In this document: piece by piece, positions 6,420 to 19,997 of the stretch | Layout of the letters: the number at the start of each line of letters is the position of its first letter | Position numbering within the stretch: the stretch's first letter is position 1 | Source: a virus | Length of the DNA stretch: 20,871 bases | Direction: 5' to 3' (one strand) | IMG/VR virus record: IMGVR_UViG_3300030090_005037 | Location: 1-20,871 of that record | Notes under the pieces: generated by a model | Seen by the model: only the letters and a program-made list of their open reading frames with translations | Told to the model about the DNA's origin: nothing | Databases searched by the model: none | Position numbers and translations under genes: made by a program

Positions 6420-6836
6420 TTGGCTATCACTCCAGTCGTCGGCACTGTCTTGAAGCTCGGGTCAACGAACGTCGGCCAAGTCACATCATTTAGCCTGGAC
6501 GGTATCGAACTGCTCACGTTTGACGCGTCGACGCTCAACGATACTGCCGGGTGGAAAACCTACGCGCGCGGCGGACGCAAAGAACCCGGCAACGCCTCGA
6601 TCAGTCTGCTGTACGATCCAGACGATACGACGCACCAATCTATCGGGGCGTTGTTCACGACGACAACTCCAGCGAACACAAGCTGGACGGTGGAACTCGC
6701 TGACCCGACACCGACATCAATCACGTTTACCAGTGCCGGCGGATCGTTCGGCATTGAAGCCAGCGGTGATGAAGCGCTCACGGCAACACTGGAACTGAAA
6801 CTAACAGGTTCTGTCGGCCTGCCGGACGGCAGCTAA
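6420..6836 (+). CDS. Major tail tube protein
   Basis: 138 residues from a TTG at 6420, with AAAGGAACC ending about 8 bases before it; no in-frame ATG exists near the start. Expected role: stacked hexamers forming the tail tube. Signs are the small size, Thr/Gly/Asp-rich beta-sandwich composition, a run beginning GTVLKLGSTNVGQVTSFSLD and a loop carrying ARGGRKEPGNASISLLYDP. This arrangement of alternating strands and a glycine-rich loop is typical of lambda gpV-type tube proteins (N-terminal domain only; no C-terminal Ig domain here). Position between the gp10-like gene and the frameshifted chaperone genes fits. Confidence 0.75.
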   Translation: MAITPVVGTVLKLGSTNVGQVTSFSLDGIELLTFDASTLNDTAGWKTYARGGRKEPGNASISLLYDPDDTTHQSIGALFTTTTPANTSWTVELADPTPTSITFTSAGGSFGIEASGDEALTATLELKLTGSVGLPDGS

Positions 6837-6845
6837 GGGTGAAAC

Positions 6846-7175
6846 ATGAAGGCGCGAATGATTCGCGACTTGGAGGCCTGGCACGACATCATGGTCAGCC
6901 AGCCAGATCTCATCACATGGCGTCGTGGAGAACCTTGGGTTCTCTGCGGCACCGTGTATGAGGCACGAGACGCATGGAAGCACTGCAATATCGGACATTC
7001 AGAACCGGCTGACGATGAGTGCCGGGAGATGTGCGAGCGGAACCCGCCGAAAGACTACGAAAAAGACATGTTGGCGTATCACGATCGCGTGGCGGCGGAG
7101 CGACGAGAATGGCTGGAAGAAGTTCAGTTTCTCAAAGAACTGGCAGAAGAAGAGGAAGAAGACGAATGGGACTGA
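6846..7175 (+). CDS. Acidic hypothetical tail-region protein
   Basis: 109 residues from the ATG at 6846, 9 bases after the tube gene. It has a Trp-rich N-terminal half (EAWHDIMVSQ, TWRRGEPWVLCGTVYEA), a middle stretch with two cysteines (DDECREMCERN) and a strongly acidic C-terminal helix (WLEEVQFLKELAEEEEEDEWD). No family recognised. The last 10 bases overlap the start of the chaperone gene, and its GAGGAAGAAG acts as that gene's ribosome site. Location suggests an additional tail-assembly factor; nothing in the sequence proves it. Confidence 0.65.
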   Translation: MKARMIRDLEAWHDIMVSQPDLITWRRGEPWVLCGTVYEARDAWKHCNIGHSEPADDECREMCERNPPKDYEKDMLAYHDRVAAERREWLEEVQFLKELAEEEEEDEWD

Positions 7176-7546
7176 CCCGCGAAGCACTGCTGAAGCCACT
7201 GCCCGTCGACATCGAAGAGGTGCCGATTCCGGAAATGGGCGGCAGCGTCTGGGTCAAGGGAATGACCGTGCGCGAAAGGAACATCTTTGAGCGCCAGTTC
7301 CAGTCGCTCAAAGGTGAACGACTGCAGAAGCGCATGAGCGAGATTCGGCAGCGGATGCTGGTCGCCTGTGTCTGCGATGAAAAGGGCGAACCACTGCTGA
7401 CAAAGCACGACATCGACGAAATCGGCAAGCAACGCGCGGACATCGTCGAACGGCTCGTGACGGTCGCGCAGCGTGTTTGCGGGTGGAGTGACCAAGACGT
7501 TGATCAGATGGCAAAAAACTCAGAGGAGACGAACGAGGACAGTTAG
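7166..7546 (+). CDS. Tail assembly chaperone (gpG-like), unshifted form
   Basis: 126 residues from the ATG at 7166, overlapping the previous gene by 10 bases; a longer upstream reading of the frame is Arg-rich noise. It begins MGLTREALLKPLPVDIEEVP, followed by MGGSVWVKGMTVRERNIFER and a helical body (ERLQKRMSEIRQRMLVACVC), the layout of phage tail assembly chaperones that keep the tape measure soluble and recruit tube subunits. Normal termination is at the TAG 7544-7546, 25 bases past a perfect slippery heptamer. Between the tube gene and the tape measure this is exactly where lambda G lies. Confidence 0.82.
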   Translation: MGLTREALLKPLPVDIEEVPIPEMGGSVWVKGMTVRERNIFERQFQSLKGERLQKRMSEIRQRMLVACVCDEKGEPLLTKHDIDEIGKQRADIVERLVTVAQRVCGWSDQDVDQMAKNSEETNEDS

Positions 7547-7833
7547 CAATCAGGCTCGCGAAGATGTGCGGCACGACGGACATCGACGCAGTTTGTGATG
7601 CAATGGACGAAGAAACTTTCCAGCGTTGGCGAGCGGCTGATGCGATTGGAATGCTGAACCATACCGAACGGATGCTGGGGCTGATCGCCTACCTGTTAGC
7701 GTCTTACCTGGAAGTAAAAATGACAAAACCGAATGAGCTTCAGGAGCTGACAATGCCGTGGGTTCCGCACACTGAAGCGGCTTCGGCAGAAGATCTGGTC
7801 AAAGAATTGCAACGCAAGCTGGGGGACGGCTGA
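7166..7833 (+). CDS. Tail assembly chaperone frameshift fusion (gpGT-like)
   Basis: Predicted product of -1 frameshifting at 7513-7519: codons 1-118 of the G-like protein joined to 104 residues of the -1 frame, 222 residues in all. The added part begins LRGDERGQLAIRLAKMCGTT and continues with VCDAMDEETFQRWRAADAIG. The 'LAIRLAK.. .. .D.. ... M....F..W.A' pattern is the T domain typical of such fusions, which bind the tail tube subunit while the G part holds the tape measure. The T part has its own ATG at 7564, but no good ribosome site precedes it, and 15 codons of the -1 frame upstream of it look like true T-domain sequence. The tape measure ATG overlaps its stop (TGATG). Confidence 0.83.
7513..7519 (+). 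promoter_or_regulatory. Programmed -1 ribosomal frameshift slippery site A AAA AAC
   Basis: The heptamer lies in the correct phase in the chaperone frame (GCA AAA AAC, codons 116-118), fitting X XXY YYZ. Slipping back one base makes the next codon begin at 7519, in the frame of the downstream ORF, which is open from 7519 through to 7833. No obvious stimulatory hairpin was found within 10 bases; a weak stem GATGT/ACATC lies about 44 bases further on. Confidence 0.85.
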
Positions 7834-9764
7834 TGGCCACGCTGGGCAATTTAGTCGTCAACCTGAGCGCGAACAGCCAACGCCTGAACAAAGGGCTGTC
7901 AAACGCACAGAAGCGACTGTCGAACTTTTCGAAGCAGGCCCGTGCGAGCGTCACCAGTGTGGTGGGCATCGCGTCGAAGATCGGCGGGGCGATTGGCGTC
8001 GGCGGCTTAGGGTTCGGGGTAAAGCTGGCAGCCGATGCGGAATCAGCGCAGGTGGCGTTTGCCACATTGCTGGGAAGTTCGGAAGCCGCAAAGAAAGCGT
8101 TGTCGGATCTGCAGGGGTTCGCCGCCAGTACACCTTTTGAACTGGGCGACTTGCGGGACGCGTCAAAGCTGCTGCTGAATTCGGGCGTCAGTACGGATCA
8201 ACTGATCGGCCGAATGACGATGCTGGGTGATATCGCCGCCGGCACCGGGAAGCCGATCGGTGAGTTCGCGTCGATCTATTCCAAAGTCGGTTCGACGGGC
8301 AAGGTGTCACTGGAAACATTGAACCAGCTCGCAGAGCGTGGCGTCCCGATTTACGGCGCGCTCGCAAAGCAGCTAGGCGTCAACCGTGAACAGATGCTGA
8401 AGATGATCGGCAGCGGCAAAGTTGGGTTCGCCGATCTGCACAACTCGATGGCCGGCATGACGACGGAAGGCGGTGTTTTTGCTGGCGGGATGAAGGCGCA
8501 GTCGACGACGCTGGCCGGTCTGTTCTCGACAATGAAAGACAACATCGGGTTTGCGTTGCAGTCAATCGCGGAACAACTGATCGAAGCGTTTGACTTCAAG
8601 GGCATCATGGAAAAGGTGATTTCCTTTTCTCAGACGGTGACGCAATACATCAAAGGCAATGCCGACGTCTTCAAGTCGATGGCTGACGGGATTATCAGTT
8701 TCGCGTCCGGCGCGGGCTCGATGCTGGTCGATGTGTTCAGCGCGACATGGAAGGTGATGCAGGATATCTCTTCCACGCTGGGCGGATGGTTTGCAATGCT
8801 CGTGAACGCTGCGGCGCAAATGATGGGCTTTTCATCGTCGGTTGATTACGCCTCCGAATTGTTTGGCACGTTCGGAAAGACCGTCGAAACCGTATCCAGC
8901 TTTATCGTTGATGCGTTCCGCGTAGTGCGGCAAGGTTTGGAGACGGCGCTGGCCGCAGCGATCGGGTACGGGATATTTATGTTTGACTCGTTCTCGGCGG
9001 CGGCGAAAACGGCAGCATATGGAATCGCGTTTCAGTTCGTTTCAAACTTCGAAACTATCAAGCACTTTTTACAAGTCGTCCTGCCGGCGTCGGCAAAATG
9101 GTTGTGGGAAAACATCGGCGCTTTGTTTACGGCTGGCGTCAATTTTGCAACGGGGGTGTTCACGAAACTCACGACCAACCTGAAGAACGCGTGGAAAGGT
9201 TTGTGGGCGTGGATCAAGGGCGACTCAGATACGTTCGACTTCAAATGGGAATCACTGACAGACCAATTCGAACACGACGTCAAAAAGTTTCCAGAAATCG
9301 CAGAGCGAGAGGCATCGGCGCTAGAAAAGAAACTTCAACGCGGAATGGAAACAAGCGCCAAAGCCGTGGGTGAAAGTTGGGATAGAAACGTAACGCAGCC
9401 ACTGGCAGAACTGCGGAAGCAACACGAAAAAGAATGGATGCCAGCCGTCCCAACAGCACCGGAAGTGCCAGAGGCACCGAAGGCACCAGATGCACCCGCA
9501 GCCGCAGCCGGGCCGGACTTGATGACAGGTGGCGGCGGAGGCGGCGCAACGACCAGTTCTGGTTCGTCGAAATCACTGGCCGGGATCGCACGCCGTGGAA
9601 GTACCGAAGCGTTTTCGCAAATCGTTTCCGCGATGCAGCGCGGCAAATCGCCTGCTGAAAAGCTACAGAAAGAAGCAAACAACGAGCTGAAGCAAATTGC
9701 GAAAAACACACATCCGCGCGAGAAAGACGGCGGCGTGATGCTCATATCTGCAGGGGCTGTCTGA
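7833..9764 (+). CDS. Tail tape measure protein
   Basis: 643 residues, coupled to the T stop by TGATG. It sets tail length and is ejected ahead of DNA. Residues about 65-245 form the conserved N-terminal tape-measure domain: AADAESAQVAFATLLGSSEA, LQGFAASTPFELGDL, ASKLLLNSGVSTDQLIGRM, LGDIAAGTGKPIGEFASIYS, LNQLAERGVPIYGALAKQLG. The middle has several hydrophobic helices (around 290-345 and 365-450), candidate membrane-active segments. Residues about 535-595 are Pro/Ala then Gly/Ser-rich (APEVPEAPKAPDAPAAAAG, then six Gly), followed by a short helical tail. At roughly 1.5 angstrom per residue, a tail near 95-100 nm would be expected (inference). No lysozyme or peptidase domain was seen. Confidence 0.93.
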   Translation: MATLGNLVVNLSANSQRLNKGLSNAQKRLSNFSKQARASVTSVVGIASKIGGAIGVGGLGFGVKLAADAESAQVAFATLLGSSEAAKKALSDLQGFAASTPFELGDLRDASKLLLNSGVSTDQLIGRMTMLGDIAAGTGKPIGEFASIYSKVGSTGKVSLETLNQLAERGVPIYGALAKQLGVNREQMLKMIGSGKVGFADLHNSMAGMTTEGGVFAGGMKAQSTTLAGLFSTMKDNIGFALQSIAEQLIEAFDFKGIMEKVISFSQTVTQYIKGNADVFKSMADGIISFASGAGSMLVDVFSATWKVMQDISSTLGGWFAMLVNAAAQMMGFSSSVDYASELFGTFGKTVETVSSFIVDAFRVVRQGLETALAAAIGYGIFMFDSFSAAAKTAAYGIAFQFVSNFETIKHFLQVVLPASAKWLWENIGALFTAGVNFATGVFTKLTTNLKNAWKGLWAWIKGDSDTFDFKWESLTDQFEHDVKKFPEIAEREASALEKKLQRGMETSAKAVGESWDRNVTQPLAELRKQHEKEWMPAVPTAPEVPEAPKAPDAPAAAAGPDLMTGGGGGGATTSSGSSKSLAGIARRGSTEAFSQIVSAMQRGKSPAEKLQKEANNELKQIAKNTHPREKDGGVMLISAGAV

Positions 9765-13494: not shown

Positions 13495-13709
13495 TCGGGA
13501 TGGACTCAAAAAGTTGTTGTCACACACACAAGTCAATTTGTCGTCAGTGCAAACTGCCGTATGAAATGTGTGTTCCGCCACACATTATTACGATGATTGG
13601 AAGTGATCATTGTTTAACGTCTCGCGATTGCACCGACATGTCGTCGAAACAGATCGAAATGTTTATTAAACGTTTGTGCGAAGACTGCTTTACCGCGAAT
13701 CAACAGTAA
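13491..13709 (+). CDS. Low-GC cysteine-rich small protein
   Basis: 72 residues, ATG overlapping the previous stop. Nine cysteines are spread along it: a CC pair (residues 9-10), CRQC (17-20), C27, then C41 and C47, and CEDC (63-66). Histidines lie close by (CCHTHKS, PPHIITM, SDHC), so one or two zinc sites are plausible. Bases 13501-13680 are about 41 percent GC by direct count, against 62 percent for 13441-13500 and 57 percent for 13741-13800. This suggests a different origin from its neighbours. No family recognised; role unknown. It ends 14 bases before the fibre gene start. Confidence 0.7.
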   Translation: MIGMDSKSCCHTHKSICRQCKLPYEMCVPPHIITMIGSDHCLTSRDCTDMSSKQIEMFIKRLCEDCFTANQQ

Positions 13710-13723
13710 CCCGAGAGAACAAA

Positions 13724-16483
13724 ATGTTAAAAAACACAGCTTCCCAGACGATCTGCTTTCAAGGCATCTCGGCCACTGATGGTGACGCGGTTACCACTGG
13801 AACCCCAACCGTCTACGTGTTAGGCGATGGCGGAACAATGTCCACGGGCGGTGGCACCAAAACGCACGAGGGCCAGGGCGTCTATTCGTATGTCCCGACG
13901 CAGGCTGAAACGAACTACGATCACGTTTCATACACTATGGTCCTCAGCGGGGCGATCAATCATACGATCAACGTTTATCCATCCACGTTCGATTACACGT
14001 CGACGACACAGACGACCATCACAGAGTCTGTCTGGACGGCAGACCTGACGCAGGATGACTGGGATACCGCGGGGATGGCTGCAGACCAACTCTACGCTGC
14101 TCTGAACACTGTTGACACAAACGTTGACGCAATCTTGGTGGATACGGGGACCACCCTTCCCGGACAAATCAACGTCGTCGATGCAAACGTTGACGCGATT
14201 TTGGTTGACACTGGGACAACAATTCCGGCCACGCTGACGACCATCGACAACGAGATTGCGACGATCGATGTAAATGTTGATGCGATCCTTGAAGACACTG
14301 GAACAACGCTTCCAGCCACGTTGACCACGATCGATAACGAAATCGCGACCATCGATGCAAATGTTGATTCTATTCTCGAAGACACTGGGACGACGCTTCC
14401 GGCCACGTTGGCCACAATTGACGGAAACGTTGACGACATTCTGGAAGACACTGGAACAACGCTGCCGGCAAGTCTGACCACGATTGACAACGAGATTGAA
14501 GCAGTTGATACAGTTGTGGACGCAATCAAGGTGGTCACGGACCAGATGGCCTTCACCACATCAAATCAGCTTGATGTGCAAGTGATCTCGATGGCAACAG
14601 ATTCGATCACAGCGTCCGCGGCTGCTGCAGATTTCATCGGAGCGGCAGAAATTGCAGACAGTGCAGCAACCGAAATAGCTGACAAAATTGCGGCTGATTG
14701 GGTCGCTGGTGACGCATCGCCGTTGGCAATTGTGGCAGCGCTCAAGGCTGATTCGGAATGGGCAAACTTAGCCACGATTGACGCGAACATTGATTCAATA
14801 CTGGAAGACACCGGAACGACGCTTCCCGCCACGTTGGCGACCATCGATGCGAACGTTGACGACATTCTTGAAGACACTGGCACGACACTGCCTGCCACGC
14901 TGGCGACCATCGATGGCAACGTTGATTCAATTCTGGTCGACACCGGGACGACACTCCCTGCATCGTTGACGACGATCGACAACGAAATCGCAACGATCGA
15001 TGCCAATGTTGATTTGGTGCTCGCTGATACAAACGAATTGCAGACCGACTGGGTCAACGGCGGGCGACTTGATCTGCTTCTGGACACGGCGGCGGGCGCA
15101 GGTGGCACCGTTGATGCAAATATCACATCGATCCTTGGCACCGCGTTGACCGAAGCTACGGGCGGCAGAATCGCTGGGAACTTCGACACCTTTTTCGAGA
15201 ACTCGAACAGTGCTACCACCAAAGTCGTCGATGACATCGGGTCGGCAACGGTTAGCGGATCAATTGACGCCAATGTCACACAAATTAAAGGATCGGACGT
15301 TACTGAGACGACGGCAGGAAGGCTGGCTGCCAACTTCTCCACGCTTTTCGATAACGGGGATGCAGCTTCAACAAAAGTGCAGAACGATATTGGAACTGCA
15401 ACGTTTGGCAGTACGGTTGACGCCAACGTTGTGCAGTACCTCGGCACTGCGATTACAGAAACGACATCAGGGCGGGCGGCCCAAAACTGGTCGACGCTGT
15501 ATGACAATAATGACCAGGCGAGCGCGAAATTGTTATCGGATATCGGAACCGCAGTTGTGACCGGGCAGCTTAATGCAAATCTGACCGAAGTTCTTGGAAG
15601 CCCACTGACAGAAACAACAGCGTCGAACCTTGCCGACAACATCAGCCAGTTCTACGACTTGGACACGACGACCACAAAGACCGTCAACGATGTCGATCAG
15701 GCGACAGTCACCGCAACGGTGGATGCGAACATCACGCAGATTTTGGGAACGGCCATCGCTGAAAGTACGTCGGGTCGTATCGCGGCTAACTGGGACGAAT
15801 TTTATGACAACGATGACGCCGCCTCTGCTGTGACGCTGCAAACGCTGCAGGATGTGGACGACAGCATCACGAACATTGCTGGATCTGGTGCCCGAACTAT
15901 CACCGTCAACGTAAAAGACACCGCCAGCACGCCGGCGAATTTGGAAAACGCGAAGGTGCGACTGACTGAGGGGATTAACACCTTCACAGCAACCACAGAC
16001 GCAACCGGGAACGCAGTGTTCGGGCTGGATGATGCGACGTATTCCTACGCGATCACGAAGAACGGCTATGTGAGTGAAACAGGAACGATTGTTGTCACCG
16101 CGGACGCGACAGTGAACAAGGATATCGAGCAAAGCACGATCACCGGAAGCAGTGGAAGCGACACATCCACCGGCGTGTTGACGTGCTACGACGAAAACTA
16201 CGCGGCGGAAACGGGCGTAACGTTCAGCGTCCAGATGACTGTCGGGCCGGGTGTCGCCGGTGATGCACTCGACACGAAAGTGAGGACCGCCGATTCCGAC
16301 GGCGCAGGTCTGGTGCAGTTCACGAACCTGATCCGCGGAGCGACCTATCAGATCTGGCGGTCAACGTTCACATCCAGCAGCGTGTTCGGCTCAGTAGCCA
16401 CCGCGAATGCGAAAGTGACGTTCGTTGTTCCCGATTCTGCCAGCTTCGATCTGCCGGAAGTTCTGGGCGTGGATGACGAGTAA
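13724..16483 (+). CDS. Repeat-built tail fibre-like protein
   Basis: 919 residues from the ATG at 13724 (GAGAG just upstream; the frame also runs a little further up inside the Cys-rich gene). Order: a beta-rich N-terminal domain (residues 1-95, with TVYVLGDGGTMSTGGGT), likely the virion anchor; two arrays of 22/29-residue DTGTT repeats (140-270 and 362-434) with heptad-type Ile/Val spacing; five repeats of about 51 residues (463-711); a carboxypeptidase-regulatory/Ig-like domain (about 726-806, with VRLTEGINTFTATTDATGNA and VSETGTIVVTADATV); and a C-terminal beta domain (820-919) with VQFTNLIRGATYQIWRSTF, the likely distal domain. Long repetitive, low-Cys, coiled-coil-forming design fits a trimeric fibre or whisker. 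Fibre identity is inference; the repeats are seen directly. Confidence 0.82.
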   Translation: MLKNTASQTICFQGISATDGDAVTTGTPTVYVLGDGGTMSTGGGTKTHEGQGVYSYVPTQAETNYDHVSYTMVLSGAINHTINVYPSTFDYTSTTQTTITESVWTADLTQDDWDTAGMAADQLYAALNTVDTNVDAILVDTGTTLPGQINVVDANVDAILVDTGTTIPATLTTIDNEIATIDVNVDAILEDTGTTLPATLTTIDNEIATIDANVDSILEDTGTTLPATLATIDGNVDDILEDTGTTLPASLTTIDNEIEAVDTVVDAIKVVTDQMAFTTSNQLDVQVISMATDSITASAAAADFIGAAEIADSAATEIADKIAADWVAGDASPLAIVAALKADSEWANLATIDANIDSILEDTGTTLPATLATIDANVDDILEDTGTTLPATLATIDGNVDSILVDTGTTLPASLTTIDNEIATIDANVDLVLADTNELQTDWVNGGRLDLLLDTAAGAGGTVDANITSILGTALTEATGGRIAGNFDTFFENSNSATTKVVDDIGSATVSGSIDANVTQIKGSDVTETTAGRLAANFSTLFDNGDAASTKVQNDIGTATFGSTVDANVVQYLGTAITETTSGRAAQNWSTLYDNNDQASAKLLSDIGTAVVTGQLNANLTEVLGSPLTETTASNLADNISQFYDLDTTTTKTVNDVDQATVTATVDANITQILGTAIAESTSGRIAANWDEFYDNDDAASAVTLQTLQDVDDSITNIAGSGARTITVNVKDTASTPANLENAKVRLTEGINTFTATTDATGNAVFGLDDATYSYAITKNGYVSETGTIVVTADATVNKDIEQSTITGSSGSDTSTGVLTCYDENYAAETGVTFSVQMTVGPGVAGDALDTKVRTADSDGAGLVQFTNLIRGATYQIWRSTFTSSSVFGSVATANAKVTFVVPDSASFDLPEVLGVDDE
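14141..14533 (+). repeat. First array of DTGTT coiled-coil repeats (units of 22 or 29 residues)
   Basis: Five consecutive units starting with DTGTT, with lengths 22, 29, 29, 22 and 29 residues. The longer units carry an extra heptad (TIDNEIA) after the TLPATL turn. Hydrophobic Ile/Val/Leu spaced 4-3-4-3 in TIDNEIATIDANVD indicates a coiled coil. Codons differ between units, so these are protein repeats rather than recent DNA duplications. Confidence 0.9.
14807..15025 (+). repeat. Second array of DTGTT coiled-coil repeats
   Basis: Three further units of 22, 22 and 29 residues, followed by a degenerate fourth start (DTNEL). Same consensus as the first array, from which it is separated by a non-repetitive segment with Ala-rich helices (ADFIGAAEIADSAATEIADK). 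Confidence 0.88.
15110..15856 (+). repeat. Five tandem repeats of about 51 residues in the fibre protein
   Basis: Units begin at 15110, 15263, 15416, 15569 and 15719 (51, 51, 51, 50 and about 46 residues). Shared pattern: V-D-A-N-I, then LGTALTETTSGRIAANW, then a Phe/Tyr-rich turn ending in DN, then a Lys/Val segment with DIGTATV. The GR(I/L)AANx(D/S)xFxD core is the best kept part. The fourth unit is most diverged. Confidence 0.9.
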
Positions 16484-18819: not shown

Positions 18820-19062
18820 ATGGGCAAAAAATTGTCGAACATTGAAACGGTCGACGCGTTGTGCAACGTAACTCGAAGGCGTCGGCGAACGTGGCTAGCG
18901 ACTTTGACGGAGAAACAGCAACAGCAATGTTGCGAAGTTCGGGACCGGGTCCAGGCAGAAAGCCTCCCAGCAAATACGGTCGCCAGAAATCTCATCGAAC
19001 ATTTCGAATTGGCAGTCAGCACGCAGACCGTGGCGAAGTGGCTCACGGAGTCGCCAGCATGA
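18820..19062 (+). CDS. Small HTH-like basic protein
   Basis: 80 residues from the ATG at 18820, chosen because GGAGG lies 6 bases before it; a GTG at 18799 would add 7 residues. Layout: basic linker (RRRRRTWLATLTEKQQQQC), helix (EVRDRVQAESLPANTVARNL), then IEHFELAVSTQTVAKWLTE. The closing 'V-S-x-x-T-V-A-K-W-L' is the recognition-helix pattern of a helix-turn-helix domain. Such small W..L..EQ.. proteins occur near phage late genes; a DNA-binding or small-terminase-like role is possible but unproven. The TGA overlaps the next ATG (ATGA). Confidence 0.62.
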   Translation: MGKKLSNIETVDALCNVTRRRRRTWLATLTEKQQQQCCEVRDRVQAESLPANTVARNLIEHFELAVSTQTVAKWLTESPA

Positions 19063-19997
19063 CAAGCAAAGTTGACGACATTGTCGGAACCGCCAGTCCG
19101 GCGGTGAAGGCGCTGGAAGAGCAAGTCGCCAAGCTGGAACAGGCGCTGGCGAAGGCACGATCAGCCAAACATAAGATCCCGACACAGAAAAGCCGGGCGA
19201 GTAAACGCGGAACATTTATCCGTGTGTTTTTGCCTGACACACATGGCAATCTGGTTGATCCGTCTGCGTTGTCGGCGTTCATGGCGGATCTGTCGCTGCT
19301 GCAGCCCCGCGAAATCTACTGCCTGGGTGACCATTTAGACTGCGGTGGCTGGTTGGCGCAGCACTTAACGCTCGGGTTTGTGCCCGAATGCGATAACACT
19401 TTTGAGGATGATGTCTGCGCGGCAAACGCCATGCTTGACGACGTGCAAAAACGCTGCCCCAAGGCCAAAATTTGGTATCTAGAGGGTAACCATGAAGAGC
19501 GGTTGGAACGCTTTATCATTAGTGCTGTGCTCCGCCACGGGAAAGATGCGGCGTTTCTTCGGAAACTCTGCGGACCTGAGACTGTTCTGCATCTCGATCA
19601 AAGAAACATACCCTACATCACCAAAGGGAAATGTTACGGTGAATGCAGGGTCCAGGGGACGATCAAAGCTGGGCGCGTGTACGTGACGCACGGGACGCGG
19701 CACGGAAAGAACGCTGCCCACGCAATGCTTCAGCGGTTTGGTGCAAGCGTGGTCTTCGGGCACGTGCATAAGCTGATGAGCGTCATGGATCGCAACGTCC
19801 ATGATGGTGAGATCGGAGCCTGGAGCGTGGGCCACTTATCGAGGCAGCAACCGCTGTGGAGGCACGGTGACCCGACTGACTGGTCGCAGGGCTACGGTTT
19901 TCAGATCGTCCAGCCGTCCGGCGATTTCCTGCATATCAACGTCCCGATCATCGACGGGAAATCCTATCTGGCCAGCCTCGGAAAGCTGCTGACATGA
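19059..19997 (+). CDS. Calcineurin-like metallophosphoesterase
   Basis: 312 residues from the ATG at 19059 (ATGA coupling); the frame upstream of it is shadow. All five metal-binding motifs of the superfamily are present: D60-T-H62 (LPDTHGN), G90-D91-HLD, G143-N144-H145-E, H211 (VTHGTRHGKN) and G234-H235-V-H237. The dinuclear centre should be intact, so phosphodiester or phosphomonoester hydrolysis is expected. N-terminal residues 14-36 form a coiled coil (ALEEQVAKLEQALAKARSA) that may oligomerise or dock a partner. Substrate is unknown: phage relatives have been associated with nucleic-acid cleavage or nucleotide turnover in general, but nothing here decides it. It lies between the HTH-like and HExxH genes. 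Confidence 0.88.
   Translation: MTSKVDDIVGTASPAVKALEEQVAKLEQALAKARSAKHKIPTQKSRASKRGTFIRVFLPDTHGNLVDPSALSAFMADLSLLQPREIYCLGDHLDCGGWLAQHLTLGFVPECDNTFEDDVCAANAMLDDVQKRCPKAKIWYLEGNHEERLERFIISAVLRHGKDAAFLRKLCGPETVLHLDQRNIPYITKGKCYGECRVQGTIKAGRVYVTHGTRHGKNAAHAMLQRFGASVVFGHVHKLMSVMDRNVHDGEIGAWSVGHLSRQQPLWRHGDPTDWSQGYGFQIVQPSGDFLHINVPIIDGKSYLASLGKLLT

Follow-up and report, generated by a model that had tools for sequence, protein, structure and literature searches.

A predicted lambda-type G/GT tail assembly chaperone frameshift cassette in an uncultured tailed phage

Organisation of the locus

The stretch of DNA analysed here (hereafter referred to as the window) comprises 20,871 nucleotides, positions 1 to 20,871, and is a part of the 23-kb virus record IMGVR_UViG_3300030090_005037. 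Genes for the terminase, portal, capsid, head-tail joining and tail tube proteins lie upstream of the cassette under study, and the gene order at the cassette itself is tail tube, small ORF, G/T and tape measure. The features considered in the analysis are given below.

6420-6836, plus strand: major tail tube protein gene (PF16460, E 4.5e-8; phrog_158, E 2.1e-9)
6846-7175, plus strand: small ORF of 109 aa, between the tail tube gene and G, overlapping the start of G
7166-7546, plus strand: G ORF, tail assembly chaperone of 126 aa (ATG at 7166, TAG at 7544-7546; phrog_344)
7504-7546, plus strand: two-frame overlap, in which the 0 and -1 frames are both open
7513-7519, plus strand: putative slippery heptamer A AAA AAC, in phase, codons GCA AAA AAC
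7519-7833, plus strand: predicted T domain in the -1 frame, TGA at 7831-7833 (Ka/Ks against the relative L002 and profile match)
7833-9764, plus strand: tape measure protein gene (PF20155 TMP_3, E 1e-22; phrog_9959, E 9.1e-47)

The G protein matches the tail assembly chaperone family phrog_344 over residues 3-125 with an E-value of 7.7e-27, and more weakly PF16459, where the match falls under the curated cut-off. When G was modelled with AlphaFold (pLDDT 74.5), the best-matching PDB entry was the tail assembly chaperone of HK97 (2OB9; Foldseek probability 1.00), a likeness of predicted fold that comes with a Foldseek E-value of only 1.8e-3 and a sequence identity of 13-16%.

Searches of Pfam and PHROG with the small ORF at 6846-7175 gave no convincing family match; the Rhodococcus phages likewise have an unnamed gene here, about 160 aa in length. 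Elsewhere in the window, a long ORF (13676-16483) contains repeated units of the form TIDANVDxILxDTGTTLPATL, as in a fibre-like protein, and was without a match in the PHROG search, and a metallo-phosphoesterase-like gene (18861-19997; phrog_221, E 8.7e-20) is located near the right end of the window.

Slippery site and reading frames

The codons GCA AAA AAC occupy positions 7511-7519 of the G ORF and contain, as the first-pass annotation had read, the heptamer A AAA AAC in the X XXY YYZ phase of the chaperone frame. The -1 frame is bounded by TGA codons at 7501-7503 and 7831-7833, the latter overlapping the tape measure ATG at 7833; the frame is thus open up to the next gene as had been described, but from 7504 onward and not only from 7519. 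Since the -1 frame opens at 7504 and G stops at 7546, a -1 shift is possible only within 7504-7546, and the heptamer falls inside this overlap. The TAG of the 0 frame does lie just downstream of the heptamer, at a distance of 24 nt. The first residues of the -1 frame after KK are LRGDERGQLAIRLAKMCGTT, and 'LAIRLAKMCGTT', which had been taken as the T-like beginning, starts further in; the likeness to T itself holds at the level of profiles (see below).

To assess the heptamer against chance, in-phase X XXY YYZ heptamers with Y being A or T were counted over the approximately 6,300 codons of the window, with codon shuffling as the control. Nine were observed against about nine after shuffling, and the probability of a chance occurrence in the 12-codon overlap is about 1.7% for any such heptamer and about 0.12% for A AAA AAC. 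The heptamer by itself is a weak case, and the persuasive part is its conservation in the relatives. A second in-phase A AAA AAC is present at 13729-13735 (ATG TTA AAA AAC from 13724, after a likely start codon), near the beginning of a long tail-region ORF, and is probably incidental.

Conservation of the slippery site

Conservation in relatives, the lack of which the first-pass annotation had named among the grounds for refutation, was examined in homologues of G fetched from viral contigs. These reach down to about 25-35% identity and provide 16 distinct sequences with a readable site, the window being counted in. An in-phase heptamer is present at the homologous place in the overlap in all 16, as A AAA AAC in 13 and as G GGA AAC in three (L025, L026 and L030). 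In these three, which belong to an Ala-containing clade, the change of AAA to GGA is coupled to a change of GCA to GCG in the preceding Ala codon. The latter is synonymous in the 0 frame and retains the X XXY YYZ form; though silent for G, it is predicted to be needed for the slip. A query alignment of ten G proteins was too diverse for scans of the collections and was set aside, and the sole match in the scan of bacterial genomes, a Planctomycetota MAG, was taken to be a false positive, as the matching frame does not continue as a chaperone.

The full heptamer was also sought in nine named phages and was found by script in five of them: G GGA AAC in Dubu, phiSASD1 and Wentworth, A AAA AAC in Psymv2 and A AAA AAG in Mcat14. 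In Jflix2 a G GGT TTC was read by eye, and in the Rhodococcus phages Madraxi, REQ1 and Shagrat the full heptamer is absent. A two-piece joined CDS is already annotated in Dubu, phiSASD1 and Jflix2.

Four related Rhodococcus phages carry T in the -1 frame, and only Jflix2 (L059) among them has the full heptamer; the homologous sites lie at 1803-1809 (L012), 1800-1806 (L013), 1851-1857 (L017) and 1803-1809 (L059). At this place Madraxi has GTCTTTC, REQ1 ATCTTTC and Shagrat GGATTTC, so that only the A-site half, TTTC, is kept. The shift in these three phages may be a slip of one tRNA or may take place at another site.

The product of the -1 frame

Comparison of the -1 frame between the window and L002 gives a Ka of 0.105 and a Ks of 1.135 (Ka/Ks about 0.09), while reading these bases in either of the remaining frames, as a control, gives Ka greater than Ks. 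The -1 protein is under purifying selection. The motif KLRxDxRxQL, directly after the slip site, is conserved as protein.

Among 11 aligned T domains, seven matched PF06223 (Phage_tail_T), the best with an E-value of 1.6e-20. The T of the window alone reached no relevant Pfam model, PF06223 included, and no relevant PHROG model, and a direct tblastn search with it against the named phages gave no match. When a profile of the window T and its nearest relatives was compared with that of the named-phage T domains, a match of 97.4% (E 1.4e-11) was obtained, which begins at the lysine of the slip site. By this comparison of profiles, the -1 product is homologous to the lambda-type T. Matches of T to DUF5694 and PSK_trans_fac in Pfam were sub-threshold and were not retained. 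The predicted structure of T is of moderate quality (pLDDT 72, pTM 0.42) and had no significant structural match, including in a search against viral predictions.

Alternative explanations for the two-frame arrangement

A conserved T could also be produced as a separate protein, by re-initiation after the G stop at an internal ATG, with the heptamer being incidental. An in-frame ATG does occur soon after that stop, at 7564, opening an ORF of 89 aa, and its Met is shared by the closest relatives (L002, L003, L005 and L006); this Met is however missing in six others (L025, L026, L029, L030, L008 and L009), and no good Shine-Dalgarno sequence precedes 7564. Such a product would leave out the conserved KLRxDxRxQL, which lies upstream of the ATG, and conservation of this motif and not of the Met favours a fused product over one with a start of its own. 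Moreover, re-initiation offers no reason for a conserved heptamer and does not explain why GCA changes to GCG in step with AAA to GGA. An internal start is therefore considered very unlikely.

The composition of the site raises two other explanations, each of which we regard as extremely improbable. A run of six A residues is prone to read errors, and the change of frame could reflect a sequencing or assembly error, or a truly broken gene, in what is one continuous gene; but this -1 layout is found again in separate contigs, whose heptamers are not all alike, and in isolates that have been sequenced, and the 0-frame tail NSE(E)T...S together with its stop is itself conserved at a fixed distance in the clade. 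Runs of A can also make RNA polymerase slip, and slippage at the A6 run during transcription, and not on the ribosome, would give the same fusion from an mRNA with one A gained or two lost. Against this, the G GGA AAC of the relatives is without a long homopolymer and yet keeps the pattern of tandem tRNA re-pairing.

Stimulatory elements

The earlier statement that no strong stimulatory structure is present close downstream is borne out, as the nearest 45 nt do not fold better than their shuffles (z +1.5) and no conserved pairing was found. A longer downstream stretch of 87 nt (within 7524-7610) gave a z-score of -2.44 against shuffles, five out of 200 shuffles being as good; the nine closest sequences yield no consensus pair, and a conserved downstream structure was rejected. 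The 87-nt fold of the window may be due to chance. An Rfam search gave no match, and no Shine-Dalgarno-like stimulator is seen upstream of the heptamer in the window; only L005/L006, Dubu and phiSASD1 have upstream sequences of the GAGG or AGGAG-like kind. The lack of a conserved stimulatory structure agrees with what has been published for tailed phages.

Predicted mechanism

Homology of the chaperone, a heptamer that is conserved and whose changes are coordinated, protein-coding selection in the -1 frame, profile homology of T, gene order and annotated relatives all agree with the G/GT frameshift proposed in the first-pass annotation, and the cassette is, with high confidence, predicted from its sequence to be a lambda-type G/GT tail assembly chaperone frameshift. 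Most ribosomes would translate G up to the stop at 7546, and a minority would move one base back at A AAA AAC (7513-7519), the tRNAs on AAA and AAC re-pairing with AAA and AAA, and would continue in the -1 frame to 7833. The resulting fusion, gpGT, would consist of G through K117 followed by K-LRGDERGQLAIRLAK... By analogy with lambda, G may coat the tape measure protein, gpGT may recruit the tail tube protein through its T part, and both proteins may leave before the tail matures. We infer the occurrence of the shift, its low efficiency and the roles of both products.

The absence of a junction peptide from a virion proteome had been put forward as grounds for rejecting the frameshift; this does not hold, as neither gpG nor gpGT is found in mature lambda virions (PMC5009743). 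In lambda the ratio of G to GT is about 30:1 (PMC5009743). Why this ratio matters is seen in TP901-1, where a permanent fusion of G and T yields normal-looking but non-infectious particles (PMC4493119). A point against the predicted shift is that E. coli shifts less readily on A AAA AAC than on A AAA AAG (PMC5009743). Tuning of the shift by a lineage-specific factor, such as a host tRNA-Asn reading AAC or the 87-nt fold, with a G:GT ratio unlike that of lambda, appears unlikely.

Recognition of the lambda-type cassette extends the known G/GT cassettes to an uncultured clade, and the replacement of GCA AAA AAC by GCG GGA AAC provides a clean case of a coordinated nucleotide change that preserves a slip site. 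It is also of relevance to gene calling, where T is hidden or misannotated when the shift goes unrecognised. The view of the frameshift mechanism is unchanged by this cassette.

Comparison with known systems

The programmed -1 frameshift of lambda G/GT was reportedly described by Levin in 1993 and by Xu, Hendrix and Duda in 2004. The slip site in lambda is G GGA AAG. The lambda cassette, the frameshift of which is reviewed in PMC5009743, and that of the window share the order tail tube, G/T and tape measure, a -1 shift (predicted in the window) on an X XXY YYZ heptamer that comes late in G, a T that belongs to the Phage_tail_T family by profile comparison, and no evident stimulator. Points of difference from lambda are the A AAA AAC of the window, an additional small ORF that follows its tail tube gene and precedes G, and a T that has diverged too far to match Pfam directly.

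Among the named phages, the Streptomyces phages Dubu (gp13/gp14) and phiSASD1 (gp35/gp35.1) have a G homologous to that of the window (34% identity), and in their annotation the -1 frame is already joined to it in one CDS at the corresponding site. Unlike the window, they have G GGA AAC with the stop immediately after it and, 10-12 nt ahead of the site, a sequence resembling AGGAG. The g-t genes of the haloarchaeal tailed virus HCTV-2 have a reported shift site of A AAA AAC (PMC5009743), as in the window; the likeness is by reported shift site alone, and the hosts differ in domain. A frameshift site of this type is a standard feature of tailed phages, and the window adds a further example, from a new uncultured phage, of an element whose type is known.
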